Shown here one piece after another: positions 10,718 to 45,893 of a stretch of 64,000 bases of DNA; positions within the stretch are counted from its first letter, which is position 1; every line of letters starts with the position of its first letter. The notes below the pieces were generated by a model, which saw nothing but the letters and a program-made list of their open reading frames with translations, was not told the DNA's origin and searched no databases. The stretch is from Candidatus Brocadia pituitae (GTDB lineage Bacteria; Planctomycetota; Brocadiia; Brocadiales; Brocadiaceae). The stretch spans positions 3,976,613 to 4,040,612 of the forward strand of contig AP021856.1 of NCBI GenBank assembly GCA_017347445.1. The letters are read 5' to 3'. Both the position numbers and the translations under genes were made by a program.

Positions 10718-12360
10718 AAGACTTTTGCAAAATAGCTTTTGTTGGTGAGGGATGAATGAGTGCAGGCCGGTTGAGCAGGGAATTGTCTGGCCAGGAATGG
10801 ATTTGGTGGGTTGTTGGGGAGGGAAAAGTCAAAAAGAACTGGGACTAAGGAAAATGTGGGCGTACCGATTCTGTGGCAGTGCTTTGAAAGGTGAGTTTTA
10901 CGATACTTTAAGCGCTTTGCTTGAGAAGAGGCCGTTGTGAGAATGTTCTAAAACACCTGATTTTGTCAGGTTGTTTGAGAAGGAGAGCCGCAGCCGAGGC
11001 AACAAGGCTCATCGATAAATGGGCAATAGCCATCTGGTTTTGAACAATCTGTAGTTTGTAATGGGTGGTTTGTTCAGCCTCCCGGTCACCAAGACGGCTG
11101 AAATACTGTTCAACCGCAATGCGGAGCTTATGAGTTTCTTTGAAAAAGTCTGTGTCTCGTGGTACCTGAGAGCGTGCATCATGGGTAATGTCGAGATATT
11201 GTGTGCAGCCGTAGGCCTTGCCTTGAGTCAAGCGGGGATGTTGAATGGGACAACCCTTGGGGTAGTTCGCAGCGACCTTGCTGTCGGCCTTGAGCGGGCA
11301 TCGGAATTTGAGGCGGGTTCGTGGCCCTTCAGTCCATGAACCAGAGGATTTCATCTCCAGCCCGGCATCGCACAAAGGGCATCCATGATGCCCAAGGGTT
11401 TTGTCTGGTTGCCGGTTCCTGGGATTCAGGGGTATGAAGGCCTGGCTTTTCATGGTATTGACGATGAGGTTATAGAGCTCCCGGACATCATAGGCGGCAT
11501 CAGCGATAAAGAGGGCTCCTTTTTTGAATTTGAAAAGCCGTTTGAGTTTTTTGATAAGCTGCACAGCAACCTGGGCGTCGGTGGAGTTGTTTGGCAGGGT
11601 TTTCGTGACGAGCGGGACGCCTTCTTTCGACACAATGACATGAGTACGGTAGCCCCAAAAGAAGATAAAGTTGTCTTTTTTCCCCTGAACTTCCTGATAG
11701 GAATAGTAACCGAGCGTGGCTTGATGATTTCGTTTTGGGCGTTTTTCCTTGTTATGAGTGTTGCGTTTGGGATTCTTGAAGTTGTTTTCTCTGGTGGCGG
11801 CCATGATGGGTTTTGAGTCTATCAGAAAGGTGTCAAGAGATACGACGCCTGCGGCAATGAGTTGGCGGTTGACTTCGGTGTGGATGTCCTCAAAGAGCGA
11901 GGTGGGTATCTCTTTAATGAATCGGTAAAACTGGCTTTCGTCAGGAAGTGCACCCATTTCGAAACCGCACCGATGAGTAAGTATCGGGTGAGAATCAAGA
12001 AATTCAATAAGCCGGGGAACGGATTTAATCTGTTCGATGTGTTTAATGATGAAAGCCTTGAGCATAGCATGTCGTGAATAGCCAGTACGCCCAACGCCAT
12101 AGTTTTTATCGGGAAACTTTGAAAGAGAAAGAGACTGAAAGATCAGGTGATACTTACGGTAGAAGGCTGACATTTCAACGACGGCTTGCAGATTATAAAA
12201 AAGAGACAACTGGAATTTTTGCATAGAATTTTCCCCCAATAATTGCTTTAAGTCATTTATTTACAAGAAGTTATATTATAGCAAGGCTGGAGGAAAAGAC
12301 AAGAGAAAAATAAATATAAATTGCCTGTTAGTAAGAGGTTATGAATTTTGCAGAAGTCTT
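10718..12360 (-). mobile_element. Insertion sequence (DUF772/DDE type), complete, 1643 bp
   Basis: Bounded by 16-base terminal inverted repeats, AAGACTTTTGCAAAAT at 10718-10733 and its complement (one mismatch) at 12345-12360. It is flanked by a 12-base direct repeat TTGAGTTTCAGT (10706-10717 and 12361-12372). It holds one transposase gene (10908-12224). Ends, duplication and an intact open frame suggest a recent insertion. Family: DUF772 plus IS4/IS1182-like DDE domain; the exact ISfinder group was not determined. Confidence 0.9.
10908..12224 (-). CDS. IS transposase, DUF772 plus DDE domain
   Basis: 438 residues from the ATG at 12224, which has GGGGGA nine bases upstream; an upstream in-frame TTG at 12239 overlaps that site. 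An N-terminal DUF772-like helical domain (YSRHAMLKAFIIKHIEQI) precedes a DDE core: TFLIDSKP, LFIADAAYD and RIAVEQYFSRLGDREAEQ supply Asp, Asp and Glu. A Cys-rich insertion (HHGCPLCDAG, then CPLK, CPIQ) sits between the last two catalytic blocks. It cuts and joins the ends of its own element. The frame is intact, so it may be active. Confidence 0.9.
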   Translation of the reverse strand: MQKFQLSLFYNLQAVVEMSAFYRKYHLIFQSLSLSKFPDKNYGVGRTGYSRHAMLKAFIIKHIEQIKSVPRLIEFLDSHPILTHRCGFEMGALPDESQFYRFIKEIPTSLFEDIHTEVNRQLIAAGVVSLDTFLIDSKPIMAATRENNFKNPKRNTHNKEKRPKRNHQATLGYYSYQEVQGKKDNFIFFWGYRTHVIVSKEGVPLVTKTLPNNSTDAQVAVQLIKKLKRLFKFKKGALFIADAAYDVRELYNLIVNTMKSQAFIPLNPRNRQPDKTLGHHGCPLCDAGLEMKSSGSWTEGPRTRLKFRCPLKADSKVAANYPKGCPIQHPRLTQGKAYGCTQYLDITHDARSQVPRDTDFFKETHKLRIAVEQYFSRLGDREAEQTTHYKLQIVQNQMAIAHLSMSLVASAAALLLKQPDKIRCFRTFSQRPLLKQSA

Positions 12361-12866: not shown

Positions 12867-13365
12867 AATTCTACTGCCTCCTTTAAATTTTCAAAATTCC
12901 TTGCAAGCCTCAAGAAGCTTTGTAAATAGCTTGAAAAACGCCCAATAAATCTCTCTCTATTATTCTATTTTATCAAGAATCTCAAGATAAGGGATTCTGG
13001 TTTATATCGATAAGGTAAACCGCAAGAGTTCACAGCCAACAGCGTCTTTATGACGATCAAATATATTTGTCCCGTGCTTTAAACAAATCGTTCTGGGCAG
13101 AAATTGGAAAGCCAGCAGTTTCAAAACTATTAAGAATTATTTGATCAACATACCGTGCAATATTTCCCAATACGGGAAAGGTATTCGTTTGAGTTTATCT
13201 TCATCATCATCATCGTTTTATAATTTATTTCAAATATCTCAAGAAAGATTATTCCAATTTGCTCACTGTTTTTATACATGAATCTTGCACGAAATTTTAA
13301 TGCCCTCCTTGGAAATCCTTATTAATAAAGGGTTAGAAAGAACCATATTGGTTTTGATATATAAC
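12867..13365. other. Intergenic stretch with a possible transposase remnant
   Basis: No intact gene. On the plus strand two overlapping frames look once-coding. About 13005-13139 reads VHSQQRLYDDQIYLSRAL, and 13054-13281 reads KTIKNYLINIPCNISQYG and ends in stop. The second resembles the C terminus of IS1380/IS4-type transposases, with a frameshift between the two. The match is by eye and weak. Confidence 0.35.
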
Positions 13366-13465
13366 CTAACCCGAACGAGTCGGAAAAGTTTTATATTAAG
13401 GAATCAGCAAACGTAATATACAATAATAAGCGAATAGTCATTTTCAACCCACTCGTTCGGGTTAG
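13366..13465. repeat. Perfect 15-bp inverted repeat spanning 100 bp
   Basis: CTAACCCGAACGAGT at 13366-13380 is exactly complementary to ACTCGTTCGGGTTAG at 13451-13465, with 70 bases between. It sits 37 bases before the start of the 504-aa element protein. It could be the left end of that element, a MITE-like insertion of its own, or a regulatory structure. The other two element copies lack this part, so they cannot decide. Confidence 0.7.
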
Positions 13466-13502
13466 TCAGATAACAGGAAGTTATTCTCCATAAGGATTTT
13501 CT

Positions 13503-15017
13503 ATGAAACTTATCACAGAAACCCACGCGGAACATATTCGAGGTACTCTTTCATGCTATGATCGTATTATTATCCAAGGCACATTACCCTCTTTTTGTTA
13601 TGCAAAGGGTATGACATCATTTCTGCATGAGAAGAAAATCCGTATCTTTGACTACCCGCAATTTGCTCAAGGCTTGCGGAACGAATTGATTGCGCATGCC
13701 CAAAAGATTGCCAGTGAGAATAATCTCAAGATCGAATACATCCCAAAAAAGAACTTTCGCCAGGAAAAACGCATTGCAGAAATCCTGAAAAAACGTGGTG
13801 ACCATCCTGGTCTTGTTCACATCTTTTCCGTACAGGAATCCTGTACCTCCTATAAACCATGGCATGACAAGAATACCCACAAGACGTTTCTCAAATACGA
13901 TCCGAGCGGGAAGTGTCTTCACTATTACTTTTACTTTATCCATAAAATTCTTGGACTCTGCTATGTCCGTGTACCAACATGGATTCCCTTCCGGCTTCAA
14001 ATCTATTGTAATGGCCATACCTGGTTAGCATCACAGTTGCAAAAGCAGAAAATCCCTTACACTCTGTGCGATAATGCGTTTCTTGATATTGGTGATTTTC
14101 AAAAAGCACAAGAAATTGCCAACGGTTTTTCACCAGAACACCTCCATACCATCCTTGATGAGTTCTCCCGGAAGTACTGCCCGTTTCTCAAGGAGTTTCA
14201 CCTTTCGTATCATTGGAGTGTTATGCAGATTGAGTATGCAACGGATATTGTCTTTCGTCAGCAAAGCTATTTACAGACCATGTATGATACCCTTGCCAGA
14301 ACAGCTATCCATACCGTAAAACCGGAGAATATCGCAACATTTCTAGGGAAAAAACTGCATGGTAATTATCAGGACGATATGGGCAACAGATTTAACACCC
14401 GTATTGAAGGCACCCGGATCAAACATGTCATGGGTCCCGCTTCGGTAAAATTGTACGACAAATTTGGTATCATGCTGAGAATAGAAACCACAACGTATGA
14501 TGTTTCCTTTTTTGAGCACTACCGCAAGGTAGAACACCGTGACGGAACAAGTGAAACGAAGGTCGCACACGTAAAAAAAGGCATCTATAGTCTTGTTTCG
14601 TTGCAAAACATATTTTTACGTGCCAATCATCGTTATCTGGAATTCATCTCTACCTTCGATGACAATCGAGTGGGGAGTGTGAATCTGAACAAGATTTCAA
14701 AGAACGTTACTGAAAAGAATCATACGTACAAAGGATTCAACTTCTTCCATGATCATGACCAGCAGATATTCCTGAGCATTGCCCGTGGTGAGTTCAACAT
14801 CCGGGGTTTTCAAAACAAAAACCTCAGAATAAAACTGAAAGAGAAAACCACGAGCCAAATATGTCGTATCATAAAACGGCTGAGAGTTCATGGGTTAATC
14901 AGAAAAATTACCCATTCATACAAATACCACCTGACAACTTTTGGGCGTAAAGTAATCGCTCTGGGCCTGAAACTCAAAGAACTCGTGATTATTCCTCAAC
15001 TCGCTGTTCAAAATTAA
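13503..15017 (+). CDS. 504-residue protein of a repeated mobile element, function unknown
   Basis: Starts at ATG 13503 after AAGGA. Residues about 1-400 are one domain of an uncharacterised family I have seen in many copies in planctomycetes and acidobacteria. Landmarks are YDRIIIQGTLPSF, LHYYFYFIHKILG, VRVPTWIPFRLQIYCNG and SVKLYDKFGIMLRIETT. The last recalls the K-x-Y-x-K ... LR-x-E pattern of plasmid/phage Rep proteins, a hypothesis only. The C terminus (about 435-504) is a winged helix-turn-helix (TTSQICRIIKRLRVHGLI then KYHLTTFGRKV), often annotated MarR-like. No DDE triad is evident. Copies B and C are truncated. Confidence 0.75.
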   Translation: MKLITETHAEHIRGTLSCYDRIIIQGTLPSFCYAKGMTSFLHEKKIRIFDYPQFAQGLRNELIAHAQKIASENNLKIEYIPKKNFRQEKRIAEILKKRGDHPGLVHIFSVQESCTSYKPWHDKNTHKTFLKYDPSGKCLHYYFYFIHKILGLCYVRVPTWIPFRLQIYCNGHTWLASQLQKQKIPYTLCDNAFLDIGDFQKAQEIANGFSPEHLHTILDEFSRKYCPFLKEFHLSYHWSVMQIEYATDIVFRQQSYLQTMYDTLARTAIHTVKPENIATFLGKKLHGNYQDDMGNRFNTRIEGTRIKHVMGPASVKLYDKFGIMLRIETTTYDVSFFEHYRKVEHRDGTSETKVAHVKKGIYSLVSLQNIFLRANHRYLEFISTFDDNRVGSVNLNKISKNVTEKNHTYKGFNFFHDHDQQIFLSIARGEFNIRGFQNKNLRIKLKEKTTSQICRIIKRLRVHGLIRKITHSYKYHLTTFGRKVIALGLKLKELVIIPQLAVQN

Positions 15018-15065
15018 TAAATTATTTTTGCTCAAATTGTCAAAATATTTTTTATTAGATACTAA

Positions 15066-40675: not shown

Positions 40676-41253
40676 CCTATTTTGCATAGGACTGAAAATC
40701 GTTCATATAGTGTAGGGAATAGTATAATGCCTTAAGAAGGAATGATGGGTCACTCATTAGGCGCTTAAGCCCATTAGTATCTAATAAAAAATATTTTGAC
40801 AATTTGAGCAAAAATAATTTATTAATTTTGAACAGCGAGTTGAGGAATAATCACGAGTTCTTTGAGTTTCAGGCCCAGAGCGATTACTTTACGCCCAAAA
40901 GTTGTCAGGTGGTATTTGTATGAATGGGTAATTTTTCTGATTAACCCATGAACTCTCAGCCGTTTTATGATACGACATATTTGGCTCGTGGTTTTCTCTT
41001 TCAGTTTTATTCTGAGGTTTTTGTTTTGAAAACCCCGGATGTTGAACTCACCACGGGCAATGCTCAGGAATATCTGCTGGTCATGATCATGGAAGAAGTT
41101 GAATCCTTTGTACGTATGATTCTTTTCAGTAACGTTCTTTGAAATCTTGTTCAGATTCACACTCCCCACTCGATTGTCATCGAAGGTAGAGATGAATTCC
41201 AGATAACGATGATTGGCACGTAAAAATATGTTTTGCAACGAAACAAGACTATA

Positions 41254-42398
41254 GTGCTTAATTGCATAAATTCATTATAGTATTTCTTAATTGCGAACCC
41301 TTAACCTCTCTCTTACGCCACACGAAAGGTTTTGCATTCGGTTGATAAGCTTCGATGAATGCCTCGATTGCACACCTCAATTGCTCAACACTTTTAAAGC
41401 TGGCGTTCTTCAAAGCTTTTCTCGAAAGAATACCAAACCATATTTCCACCTGATTGAGCCAACTTGCAGAAGTAGGTGTAAAATGGAATTTAACATTCGG
41501 GTGTGCTGCCAACCATTCCCCGTTTCGCTTGTGAATACAGTAGTTGTCGAGAATAACATGGATTTCCTTCTTGTCGCTATCCGGTAAATCCAAAAGCAGT
41601 TGATCCATGAATGCCAGAAATTCCACTCGTCTTTTTAATTCTGTTGTTTGCGTATGAATAGTTCCTGTTGCCACGTTGAGAGCTGCAAACAGGTTCAGCG
41701 TCCCATGACGCTTATAGGTACTTTTAAGACCATGTACGATTTTTCTGTTGCTTGTACATACATAGCCTTTGGTTCGCTCTAAAGCTTGTATACTTGGCTT
41801 TTCGTCAACAGAAATCACTATGGCATTCTCTGGCGGGGACAGGTATAAACCTACGATATCAGCCGCCTTGGTCGTAAATTCCGGGTCAGTACTCACACAC
41901 CAGCTTCTTTGCCGCGCAAGGCAAATGCCTTCCTTTCGAAGAATACGCCAGATGGCATCGTCTGATGCCCCCAAATGCTTTGCAAGGGAGGGACCATCCC
42001 AACTTGCCTGTCCTTTTGGCGGCTCAAGCTCCAATGTCTTCAAAACCTGATTGCGAAACTCCTTATCATATTTCGCAGGTTTGCCGGAACGAGGCAGATC
42101 GTACAAGCCTTTGATCCCGTTTGTACTAAAGCGACCACGCCACTCAATAACAGTTTTCTGGGATGTCCCAAGGGCTGTGGCCACCTTATTCACCTGCTCT
42201 CCGGCAAGCAGCATGTTCATGATTTTAGCTCGTCCAACAAGCCTCCACTCTGCACTCCGACTATTAGCCCATTCGGCAAGAATCTGCCGATCTTGCTCCG
42301 AACAACAAGGTATTGGTGCTTTTCTTGGCATGGCAGACCTCCTTCATATAGAAATAAAAGGAGTCTACTATATTTAACTTATTTTTGCATGTATACAA
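41254..42398 (-). mobile_element. IS630-family insertion sequence, 1145 bp
   Basis: Inserted in element copy B and flanked by TA on both sides (41252-41253 and 42399-42400), the family's target duplication. Comparison with copy A (GACTATAGATGCC) shows exactly where it entered. The ends are imperfectly inverted (TTGCATAAAT near the left, ATGCAAAAAT near the right). It contains one intact transposase gene. Confidence 0.9.
41258..42331 (-). CDS. IS630-family transposase
   Basis: 357 residues. An N-terminal helix-turn-helix (VNKVATALGTSQKTVIEW, then GIKGLYDLPRSGKPAKY) precedes a DDE domain: VISVDEKPSIQALER, HVILDNYCIHK and SASWLNQVEIWFG supply Asp, Asp and Glu. This is the full IS630/Tc1-type layout. 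GGAGG lies about 10 bases before the ATG at 42331. The frame is intact, and insertion into a repeat copy suggests recent movement. Confidence 0.93.
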   Translation of the reverse strand: MPRKAPIPCCSEQDRQILAEWANSRSAEWRLVGRAKIMNMLLAGEQVNKVATALGTSQKTVIEWRGRFSTNGIKGLYDLPRSGKPAKYDKEFRNQVLKTLELEPPKGQASWDGPSLAKHLGASDDAIWRILRKEGICLARQRSWCVSTDPEFTTKAADIVGLYLSPPENAIVISVDEKPSIQALERTKGYVCTSNRKIVHGLKSTYKRHGTLNLFAALNVATGTIHTQTTELKRRVEFLAFMDQLLLDLPDSDKKEIHVILDNYCIHKRNGEWLAAHPNVKFHFTPTSASWLNQVEIWFGILSRKALKNASFKSVEQLRCAIEAFIEAYQPNAKPFVWRKREVKGSQLRNTIMNLCN

Positions 42399-43395
42399 TA
42401 GATGCCTTTTTTTACGTGTGCGACCTTCGTTTCACTTGTTCCGTCACGGTGTTCTACCTTGCGGTAGTGCTCAAAAAAGGAAACATCATACGTTGTGGTT
42501 TCTATTCTCAGCATGATACCAAATTTTTCGTACAATTTTACCGAAGCGGGACCCATGACATGTTTGATCCGGGTGCCTTCAATACGGGTGTTAAATCTGT
42601 TGCCCATATCGTCCTGATAATTACCATGCAGTTTTTTCCCTAGAAATGTTGCGATATTCTCCGGTTTTACGGTATGGATAGCTGTTCTGGCAAGGGTATC
42701 ATACATGGTCTGTAAATAGCTTTGCTGACGAAAGACAATATCCGTTGCATACTCAATCTGCATAACACTCCAATGATACGAAAGGTGAAACTCCTTGAGA
42801 AACGGGCAGTACTTCCGGGAGAACTCATCAAGGATGGTATGGAGGTGTTCTGGTGAAAAACCGTTGGCAATTTCTTGTGCTTTTTGAAAATCACCAATAT
42901 CAAGAAACGCATTATCGCACAGAGTGTAAGGGATTTTCTGCTTTTGCAACTGTGATGCTAACCAGGTATGGCCATTACAATAGATTTGAAGCCGGAAGGG
43001 AATCCATGTTGGTACACGGACATAGCAGAGTCCAAGAATTTTATGGATAAAGTAAAAGTAATAGTGAAGACACTTCCCGCTCGGATCGTATTTGAGAAAC
43101 GTCTTGTGGGTATTCTTGTCATGCCATGGTTTATAGGAGGTACAGGATTCCTGTACGGAAAAGATGTGAACAAGACCAGGATGGTCACCACGTTTTTTCA
43201 GGATTTCTGCAATGCGTTTTTCCTGGCGAAAGTTCTTTTTTGGGATGTATTCGATCTTGAGATTATTCTCACTGGCAATCTTTTGGGCATGCGCAATCAA
43301 TTCGTTCCGCAAGCCTTGAGCAAATTGCGGGTAGTCAAAGATACGGATTTTCTTCTCATGCAGAAATGATGTCATACCCTTTGCATAACAAAAAG

Positions 43396-44754
43396 GGATC
43401 TTCGCGTAGTCGTGTGGGTAAAGGGGAGTGCAAATTAGTATAAGATGGCTTTAGATAAAGGGAGAAGAGCTTTTAAAGGTGGCGTAAAATCTGTATGATT
43501 ACCTTATGGGAAAAAAGAGACGATTATTGGACGAATACTACTTCCCCGGGTTTCGCCCGCAATCTGATATACAGGGGAAATTTGGAGATCCACGCGCTCG
43601 GATTATCCGGCTTAAGAGGATCCAAAAAAAACGCTCTGCGGATGTTGTGGCACGGCACATCGGAGCCACTACGACAAGAAAGTGCAGCAGACACGGGATC
43701 TATCCTGCGGGGATGCCAGGATATACCTGGAGGCGGAGGTACGGAGAGTTAAGTGCAAGAAGTGCGGTACCGTGAAACGAGAGAAACTGCCTTGGCTAGC
43801 GAACAATCCTTTTTACACGAAGCGATTTGCCTACTATGTAGGCCGGAAGTGCCGAGCCATGACGATCAAGGATGTAGCAAAAGAGTTGAAACTGGATTGG
43901 CACACGGTAAAGGTACTGGAAAAGGAGTACATGCAGGAGCAGTTGCGGCGCAATCCTGTTGCAGCACCCAGGACAATCGGGATAGACGAAATATCTCTGA
44001 GAAAAGGGCATACCTACCGAATTGTGGTCAGCGATCTGGAAAGAGGGAAGCCGATCTGGTTTGGTGGCGAGGATCGCTCAGAGGCGAGTCTTGATATGTT
44101 TTACACCTCATTGGGACCGAAGAAGATCAGGAAGATTGAACTTGCGGTAATGGACATGTGGAAAGCCTTTGAGAAATCGACGAGAAAGAATGTTCCCAAG
44201 GCGGCAATCCTGTACGACAAGTTTCACGTTATGAGGCACCTGGGAGATGCATTGGACAAGATAAGGAAGATGGAGTACGGGCGTCTTTCCGGGAAAGATA
44301 GGTCATACATCAAGGGACAGAAGTATACGCTTTTGTCGAACCGTGAGAATCTCACGCTTGACGGTCGCAAGGCATTAAAGAAACTGCTGGGGGGCTAATA
44401 AACGGCTCAATACAGCTTATGTTTTAAGAGAATCCTTTGGGCAGCTCTGGAGCTATAAGACGGAAGGTTGGGCACGACAGTTCTTCGACAACTGGAAGGA
44501 ATCTCTGAAATGGCAAAGACTAGAACCCTATGAGAAATTTGCTGCGATGATAGAACGGCACTGGGACGGCATCGCTGCCTATAGCAGACCTGAGAATAAA
44601 GTTTCATTAGGTTTTGTTGAAGGGTTGAACAATAAGATTCGGGTGATCCAAAGAAGGGCTTACGGGTTACGTGACGAAGAGTATCTCCGACTGAAAATCC
44701 TTACCTGTATGCTCAAGGAGATATAAAATGACCCACACGACTACACGAAGACCC
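43396..44754 (+). mobile_element. ISL3-family insertion sequence between two inverted element copies
   Basis: Terminal inverted repeats of 24 bases: GGATCTTCGCGTAGTCGTGT then GGGT at the left, and the complement (two mismatches) ending at 44754. The flanking 8-mers (ACAAAAAG left, ACTTTTAC right) do not match, so there is no target duplication. Both flanks are pieces of the 504-aa element in opposite orientation, pointing to recombination between two ISL3 insertions rather than one simple insertion. Confidence 0.88.
43506..44726 (+). pseudogene. ISL3 transposase with two homopolymer frameshifts
   Basis: Reading in order: MGKKRRLLDEYYFPGF to RLKRIQKK; a shift at the A8 run (43624-43631); then LCGCCGTAHRSHYDKK, a zinc finger with RRVKCKKCG, a helix-turn-helix (MTIKDVAKELKLDWHTVK) and the DDE core (IGIDEISLRKG, AVMDMWKAF). 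A second shift at G6 (44389-44394) is followed by NKRLNTAYVLRESF, then VEGLNNKIRVIQRRAYG, to a stop at 44726. Restoring both runs gives one full ISL3 transposase of about 405 residues. Decayed, or read errors. Confidence 0.85.
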
Positions 44755-45845
44755 ACTTTTACTTTATCCATAAAATTCTTGGACTCTGCTATGTCCGTGT
44801 ACCAACATGGATTCCCTTCCGGCTTCAAATCTATTGTAATGGCCATACCTGGTTAGCATCACAGTTGCAAAAGCAGAAAATCCCTTACACTCTGTGCGAT
44901 AATGCGTTTCTTGATATTGGTGATTTTCAAAAAGCACAAGAAATTGCCAACGGTTTTTCACCAGAACACCTCCATACCATCCTTGATGAGTTCTCCCGGA
45001 AGTACTGCCCGTTTCTCAAGGAGTTTCACCTTTCGTATCATTGGAGTGTTATGCAGATTGAGTATGCAACGGATATTGTCTTTCGTCAGCAAAGCTATTT
45101 ACAGACCATGTATGATACCCTTGCCAGAACAGCTATCCATACCGTAAAACCGGAGAATATCGCAACATTTCTAGGGAAAAAACTGCATGGTAATTATCAG
45201 GACGATATGGGCAACAGATTTAACACCCGTATTGAAGGCACCCGGATCAAACATGTCATGGGTCCCGCTTCGGTAAAATTGTACGACAAATTTGGTATCA
45301 TGCTGAGAATAGAAACCACAACGTATGATGTTTCCTTTTTTGAGCACTACCGCAAGGTAGAACACCGTGACGGAACAAGTGAAACGAAGGTCGCACACGT
45401 AAAAAAAGGCATCTATAGTCTTGTTTCGTTGCAAAACATATTTTTACGTGCCAATCATCGTTATCTGGAATTCATCTCTACCTTCGATGACAATCGAGTG
45501 GGGAGTGTGAATCTGAACAAGATTTCAAAGAACGTTACTGAAAAGAATCATACGTACAAAGGATTCAACTTCTTCCATGATCATGACCAGCAGATATTCC
45601 TGAGCATTGCCCGTGGTGAGTTCAACATCCGGGGTTTTCAAAACAAAAACCTCAGAATAAAACTGAAAGAGAAAACCACGAGCCAAATATGTCGTATCAT
45701 AAAACGGCTGAGAGTTCATGGGTTAATCAGAAAAATTACCCATTCATACAAATACCACCTGACAACTTTTGGGCGTAAAGTAATCGCTCTGGGCCTGAAA
45801 CTCAAAGAACTCGTGATTATTCCTCAACTCGCTGTTCAAAATTAA
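44755..45845 (+). pseudogene. 504-aa element protein gene, copy C, 5'-truncated
   Basis: Retains about codons 142-504 of the copy A protein (from FYFIHKILGL to QLAVQN). The longest ATG-started frame begins at 44865 (326 residues) and includes the winged-helix end but not the N-terminal third. It lacks its own ribosome-binding site; transcription could only come from ISL3 or beyond. Confidence 0.88.
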
Positions 45846-45893
45846 TAAATTATTTTTGCTCAAATTGTCAAAATATTTTTTATTAGATACTAA
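44755..45893 (+). mobile_element. Repeated 504-aa element, copy C (5'-truncated)
   Basis: Equals copy A positions 13927-15065 base for base in length (1139). It begins at the ISL3 boundary with ACTTTTACTTTATCC and ends with TTAGATACTAA at 45893. Beyond this lies a gene with no relation to the flanks of A or B. Where compared, the protein is identical to copy A. Confidence 0.9.

Follow-up and report, generated by a model that had tools for sequence, protein, structure and literature searches.

The question raised by this locus is how a repeated DNA element moves when its only gene encodes a protein that is not recognizable as a transposase. The window considered here is a 64,000-nt stretch of the Candidatus Brocadia pituitae genome (complete, 4.08 Mb; contig AP021856.1, positions 3,976,613 to 4,040,612 of the forward strand). 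The element copies in it, and two other insertions that interrupt them, are as follows (window coordinates):

13368-15063, plus strand: element copy 1, complete, 1,696 bp, beginning AACCCGAACGAG and terminating TTAGATACT, with a single 504-aa gene
13365-13367, plus strand: CCT, left half of the target, as in native sites of relatives
15064-15065, plus strand: AA, right half of the target; at this point the gene broken by copy 1 reads TATCCTAATACC in its intact orthologues
42395-43395, minus strand: 5' part of copy 2, without the left end (BLASTN within the window)
40774-41254, minus strand: 3' part of copy 2, including the right end (BLASTN within the window, where it starts at 40773)
44755-45893, plus strand: right-hand fragment of copy 3, including the right end (BLASTN within the window)
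41255-42394, minus strand: IS630-type element splitting copy 2, separate from the repeat (DDE_3, E 9.5e-21)
43396-44754, plus strand: ISL3-type element bordering copies 2 and 3, separate from the repeat (DDE_Tnp_ISL3, E 6e-36)

A sequence-only reading of this DNA had proposed three near-identical copies of a mobile element with the same right end. Their positions, the common right terminus TTAGATACTAA and the unrelated flanks stand, with identities to copy 1 of 99.8-100% for the parts of copy 2 and 100% for copy 3 (BLASTN, window), but only copy 1 is complete, copies 2 and 3 being fragments. That reading had the element start at 13503, the first base of the gene. Homology of same-genus relatives to copy 1 spans 13365/13366 to 15065, so that the left end is upstream of the gene, while the proposed right limit of 15065 holds if the target AA is included; these limits and the empty-site cut point CCT^AA (below) define the element proper as 13368-15063. 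Its copies do not extend into a larger known element, and exact ends, empty sites and many copies, described below, confirm its mobility: the repeat is an insertion sequence. The gene interrupted by copy 1 is a Schlafen/AlbA gene. The ISL3-type element truncates both copy 2 and copy 3, and its position adjoining fragments of both is probably due to an earlier inversion; its own transposase frame is broken (window 43396-44754). There is also a DDE transposase (DUF772 / DDE_Tnp_1) at 10908-12239, ~1.1 kb to the left of copy 1.

Empty sites were identified by rejoining the flanks of individual copies and searching related genomes for the result. In the main family, a 98%-identical locus shows the empty site of one copy (L132) as GATCCTAATAGG; that of a second (L142) is ATACCTAAAAAG; and the site of a third (L133) reads CTCCTGATG in relatives. 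Native main-family sites are GATCCT^AATAGG and ATACCT^AAAAAG. For copy 1, orthologues of the broken gene from four same-genus genomes align across the exact right junction, reading TATCCTAATAC in three genomes and TATCCAAGTAC in G005, with CCT^AATACC at the junction in intact orthologues. Together, these empty sites and right-junction orthologues place insertion between CCT and AA, with nothing duplicated or lost. A shorter main-family target, C^AA, was considered and is ruled out by the empty sites with CCT^AA; rejoining the copy 1 flanks as C+AA gives the peptide KVLLYI, and as CCT+AA gives KVLGYI, near the KVLGYV of the intact orthologues.

A 29%-identical version of the element is found in the G020 genome (4.4 Mb, one contig) as 21 full copies and one split copy. 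The native site of this subfamily is C^AC, as seen in a 97%-identical paralogue and in the restored reading frame of a gene with paralogues. Its flanks (aaccac-aaag-gg to the left of the element, aaag-aacacg to the right) could be taken for a 4-nt duplication plus two extra bases, but the native sites show a simple C^AC insertion. No target duplication was found at the empty sites of either the main family or the G020 subfamily.

The left junction of copy 1 is less regular. Its left flank (window 13300-13365) has no homology to the rest of the AlbA-type gene, whose orthologues go on QRFGVGIQIAREELRKNG. Because the sequence left of CCT is unlike that of the orthologues, this junction appears to have been rearranged or otherwise formed, whether by subsequent deletion or by an event involving one end, and the empty-site proof for copy 1 covers the right junction. 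At another locus (L086), a tandem array (AAGTACCT)n with CCT^AA in every unit adjoins the right end of the element; it could possibly have arisen by repeated nicking and slippage.

The ends are equally well defined in genomes with many copies. The 15 G020 copies compared begin and end at the same base pair in unrelated flanks (one is off by 1 base, at the right end), and the copy sets of Dorea, Lachnospiraceae A4, Rhodocyclaceae, and Anaerolineales likewise have exact ends and unrelated flanks. With the target included, the common ends of the family are CCTAASCCGG-N5-CCGGAACCAAACAGG... on the left and ...RKACTAA on the right. These multi-copy sets provide the unbiased evidence for the ends; a 49-locus end logo was gathered by a pattern demanding CCYAA, and its CC column is therefore not independent. 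One same-genus copy has GCTAA instead of CCTAA. The terminal features of copy 1 are:

15055-15063, plus strand: right-end terminal motif TTAGATACT, in the family RKACT^ (end alignments)
13371-13383, plus strand: hairpin CCGA-ACGAG-TCGG of the left end, starting 3 nt in from the cut (family covariation)
13366-13383, plus strand: left arm of an 18-bp internal inverted repeat, 94% complementary, with arms 64 nt apart
13448-13465, minus strand: right arm of this repeat, an inverted copy of the left end (same repeat search)

The earlier reading had seen no inverted ends, and end alignments of multi-copy sets from several phyla show no terminal inverted repeats, but there are a left-end hairpin and the internal 18-bp inverted repeat. 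Across 21 distinct left ends, the family hairpin AASCCGG-N5-CCGG has a 4-bp stem with 98.8% of cells paired. It covaries: both sides have changed in three of the four pairs, with nine compensatory and zero one-sided cells, and slid controls collapse. The family right ends have no consistent fold (mean z -0.6), and there is no Rfam match for the element. An inverted left-end copy close to the true left end is also present at two other loci (L054 and L056).

At first glance, the occurrence of CTAA at the left end, the right end and the target of the main family suggests a conservative site-specific recombinase, exchanging duplex DNA over a 4-bp core. In the G020 subfamily, however, the left end (C^CTAG), right end (AGT^AC) and target (C^AC) have no common core, there is no match to serine or tyrosine recombinase families in Pfam or NCBIfam, and duplex exchange would not give the strand bias described below; such a recombinase seems improbable.

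Some copies consist of little more than ends. In addition to its full copies, G020 has at least 12 short elements of about 180 bp, at the C^AC target, whose likeness to the full element is confined to about 29 bp at the start and 43 bp at the end. In the window genome there are solo left ends and a mini-element of ~130 bp (L009), now decayed. These non-autonomous copies suggest that the ends are sufficient in cis. Near-matches to the left-end 15-mer number 25 in the window genome, vs. seven for a reversed control. Among the solo left ends are L005 (G000:2501278-2501377) and L006; the former is a ~104-bp palindromic unit, with a left end facing an inverted left end (CCTAACCCGAATGAGT...ACTCGTTCGGGTTAGG), similar to a REP doublet. 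In G020, two copies 200 bp apart (L046, G020:985197-988803) lie in duplicated flanks at the same relative site, and other duplicates of this flank have short elements at that same site.

The family is apparently widespread and unclassified. Homologues were found in 21 of the 98 relatives searched, and 217 related stretches were confirmed in a scan of one-genome-per-species contigs. The best 80 of these 217 include Desulfobacteraceae, Acidobacteria, Bacteroidales, Chloroflexi, Lachnospiraceae, Betaproteobacteria, Nitrospirota, Planctomycetota, and others, along with one archaeon, Ca. Bathycorpusculum. Distant members, annotated as hypothetical or ArsR-like, are carried on plasmids of Mycobacterium, Rhodococcus, Caballeronia, and Paraburkholderia; on a Mycobacterium riyadhense plasmid (L311, 1983-5403), two adjacent divergent members are found behind IS4-type transposase genes. 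Distribution inside single families is sparse (6/151 and 3/150 genomes). A phage origin was considered and is rejected, there being no sequence relatives in 50,697 phage records and two in 2.9 million viral contigs.

The gene and the codons discussed below are:

13503-15017, plus strand: transposase gene, 504 aa (ORF), with a catalytic region at about residues 1-400 and a MarR-like winged helix at about 434-492
13560-13562, plus strand: codon for D20, putative metal ligand (Rep_trans D46); invariant; in strand 1, residues 12-27
14232-14234, plus strand: codon for E244, putative metal ligand (Rep_trans D142); invariant; in strand 237-251
14448-14462, plus strand: codons for K316-L-Y318-D-K320, with Y318 the proposed nucleophile; K, Y and K invariant; in strand 313-320
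14478-14486, plus strand: codons for R326-I-E328, with E328 a putative metal ligand (Rep_trans E214); invariant; in strand 324-331

A single gene of 504 residues with a C-terminal winged helix, not a recognized transposase, had been described from the sequence, and database searches bear this out. In Pfam, NCBIfam, PHROGs, and PADLOC, the window protein has only weak matches, to winged-helix models and to families of unknown function; among Pfam transposase families there is none that matches it or five diverse relatives, and NCBIfam, which names transposases for annotation, has no transposase match for it. A role as a defense system was also considered, and is rejected as PADLOC gave one weak match, to the winged helix only.

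The winged helix is the only part recognizable in databases, and one plasmid-borne copy bears the annotation ArsR-family regulator, so the gene could be conceived of as a passively carried ArsR/MarR-like regulator in an element mobilized in trans by some other transposase. It is, however, the sole gene, conserved between constant ends across many phyla and genomes, with a set of invariant residues that looks catalytic (below), and this is the least probable of the explanations considered here.

The AlphaFold model has a pLDDT of 87 for the full protein and 89 (pTM 0.87) for the catalytic region alone, and is rich in long antiparallel strands. In Foldseek searches with the full model, the matches were to a viral TATA-binding protein (TBP) in the viral library (E 7.5e-5, prob 0.98), the inoviral Rep A0A8S5Q7Q4 (E 1.2e-3, prob 0.97) and the TBP structure 1mp9 in the PDB (prob 0.94), with MarR regulators matching the C-terminus. 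The catalytic region alone had no significant match in the PDB, with TBP and Rep_trans absent from the top 50. The full-model matches suggest a possible TBP-like fold.

Fourteen residues are invariant among 55 relatives down to 20% identity: D20, R21, G103, G151, P162, N170, G171, N191, E244, K316, Y318, K320, R326, and E328. A further set including actinobacterial members agrees, with D20 missing in one sequence only, because its chosen start is downstream. Y318 is the sole invariant tyrosine in the 55 sequences, and no H-x-H pair is conserved among them.

In principle, the invariant acidic residues could be those of a transposase of DDE or RNase-H-like (DEDD, IS110-like) type that has diverged beyond recognition. 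In IS110 elements, too, inverted repeats and long duplications are missing, a parallel to the present family. Such an origin seems highly improbable: in the searches above, the window protein matched no transposase model of Pfam or NCBIfam and five diverse relatives matched none of Pfam, the antiparallel-strand model has TBP-type rather than RNase H matches, and there is no target duplication.

A better candidate is Rep_trans. Its members, documented in plasmids, phages, and integrative and conjugative elements (ICEs), make up the second group of rolling-circle nickases. These enzymes have the TBP fold, and the active site of RepDE is made up of D46, D142, R189-x-Y191-x-K193, and R212-x-E214, on strands 1, 6, 10, and 11 (PMC4797284). 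Seven of the 14 invariants mirror it: D20, E244, K316-x-Y318-x-K320, and R326-x-E328. The last two groups lie within SVKLYDKFGIMLRIETT, which the sequence-only reading had already thought reminiscent of Rep-type initiators. Its suggestion of a single-strand mechanism, either HUH or Rep-like, survives in the second form: the motifs are Rep-like, but the HUH alternative gains no support, as no H-x-H is conserved and the fold of Rep_trans is a different, TBP-like one.

The published Rep_trans motifs are N' (D), I (RxD), II ([TS]x[YE]xG), III (YxKxxE), and IV ([WL]xRxE) (PMC5714925). The present family has N' as the invariant D20 on strand 12-27; III as YxK on strand 313-320, with a basic residue two before the Y but no final E; and IV as R326-x-E328 on strand 324-331, at a shorter distance from III than in Rep_trans. 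In place of motif I it has Q242-x-E244, with the acid invariant as E and the R not kept, and no clear match is seen on the strand that precedes the Y strand (303-310, TRIKHxMG), where motif II would be expected. There is no match to PF02486 at E<=1 for the window protein or five diverse relatives, and hhalign against seven Rep_trans proteins gave a probability of 0.5%. Direct profile comparison by hhalign thus shows no sequence-level kinship with Rep_trans, and membership in PF02486 is not claimed. The nic site of Rep_trans/MOBT enzymes is CT'AA (PMC9371924), and the recombination point of the main family, from empty sites, coincides with it (CCT^AA; C^AC in one subfamily). This agreement is independent, as it was not used for alignment or motif assignment.

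In G020, GC skew and coding bias, taken over 40 sampled windows, agree on a replication origin near 1.93 Mb and a terminus near 4.02 Mb. The transposase strand is on the lagging-strand template in 20 of 22 copies (p 1.2e-4), a count from one genome with sampled GC skew, in which two neighboring copies may not be independent. For a DDE control element in the same genome the figure is 8 of 20 (Fisher p 8e-4), and the bias persists (18-20 of 22) for origin positions from 1.8 to 2.15 Mb. Elements of the IS608 type target the lagging-strand template (PMC6006769).

The likely explanation, in our view, is an autonomous insertion sequence with single-strand movement, driven by a Rep_trans-type (TBP-like) tyrosine endonuclease and not by a classical tyrosine, serine, DDE or HUH recombinase. 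In this scheme, the enzyme would be placed on the transposase-coding strand by its C-terminal winged helix together with the left-end hairpin. When this strand is single-stranded as lagging-strand template, Y318, with metal on D20, E244, and E328, would cleave the left end at CCT^AA and the right end at ACT^AA; the 3'OH groups of flank and element would then swap on the 5'-phosphotyrosines, resealing CCTAA and releasing a single-strand circle in which ACT is joined to AACCCGG. Movement would thus be by excision rather than copying, and insertion into a new CCT^AA could take place by the same chemistry.

The main rival to such a peel-and-paste process is IS91-like rolling-circle copying by the same type of enzyme, in which one end is nicked, a single-strand circle is formed by replicative displacement and the donor stays in place. 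Initiation of rolling-circle replication is the normal function of Rep_trans enzymes; IS91 likewise has no inverted repeats or duplications (PMC5714925); there are up to 22 near-identical copies per genome; and one-ended events could leave a left flank unlike the interrupted gene, as at copy 1. On the other hand, both ends are equally precise in each multi-copy set, both are kept in the short derivatives, and lagging-strand bias is a mark of peel-and-paste elements such as IS608 (PMC6006769). Copying is possible, but we think it rather unlikely.

Single-strand transposition is known for HUH enzymes (IS200/IS605, IS91, and Helitrons). The part of the literature covered describes neither a transposase of Rep_trans type nor a named family to which this protein belongs. 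On balance, we favor the view that it represents a DNA transposase class that is new: a tyrosine endonuclease with a TBP fold, like Rep_trans, that evolved separately from the HUH transposases and moves an insertion sequence in single-stranded form at CCT^AA, in many phyla of bacteria and at least one genome from the archaea. The enzyme class, not the element type, would be new, since the element itself is an insertion sequence, and the label hinges on the catalytic assignment. If it is correct, the family would supply a Rep_trans-like transposase, single-strand transposition would have arisen at least twice, from unrelated nickases, and proteins now annotated as hypothetical or ArsR-like would acquire exact ends and a function that can be tested. 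Since complete genomes contain the element in many identical copies, it is directly assayable.

Among known systems, DDE insertion sequences have inverted repeats and target duplications, both missing in this family, and IS110 transposases have DEDD and Transposase_20 domains, whereas this protein has no Pfam match to these. IS91, ISCR, and Helitrons (Y2-HUH) share Rep-related single-strand transposition without inverted repeats or duplications, but this family has neither HUH nor a conserved tyrosine pair, and a different target. The IS200/IS605 elements (TnpA Y1-HUH; IS608, ISDra2) are closer in behavior, with no inverted repeats or target duplication, a conserved target beside the left end, a subterminal hairpin and lagging-strand template bias. 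They have hairpins at both ends, however, where only the left is supported here, and a short Y1 TnpA; the present family has a 504-aa protein with no HUH motif, no TnpB and a target that spans the cut (CCT^AA).

As to replication proteins, the rolling-circle initiators of filamentous phages (inoviral Rep) are similar by structural match only, with no sequence relatives among the 50,697 phage records. Rep-Arvir (RepSNJ2, DUF7845) has a similar pattern of structural matches, a C-terminal MarR-like domain and a link to Rep_trans that is invisible by sequence (PMC13107129). The likeness extends to TBP-like matches mainly in the viral library, a tyrosine with acidic residues and the MarR-like winged helix, but Rep-Arvir is archaeal, replicates plasmids and viruses, and has no transposon ends. 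With Rep_trans itself (pT181 RepC/RepD, RepSTK1, and the MOBT relaxases NicK and RelSt3), the family shares residue order, strand positions, the CT^AA site and predicted TBP-like matches. It differs in its additional C-terminal MarR-like winged helix, in a cut beside the hairpin rather than in the hairpin loop, and in serving an insertion sequence where Rep_trans serves a replicon or ICE.
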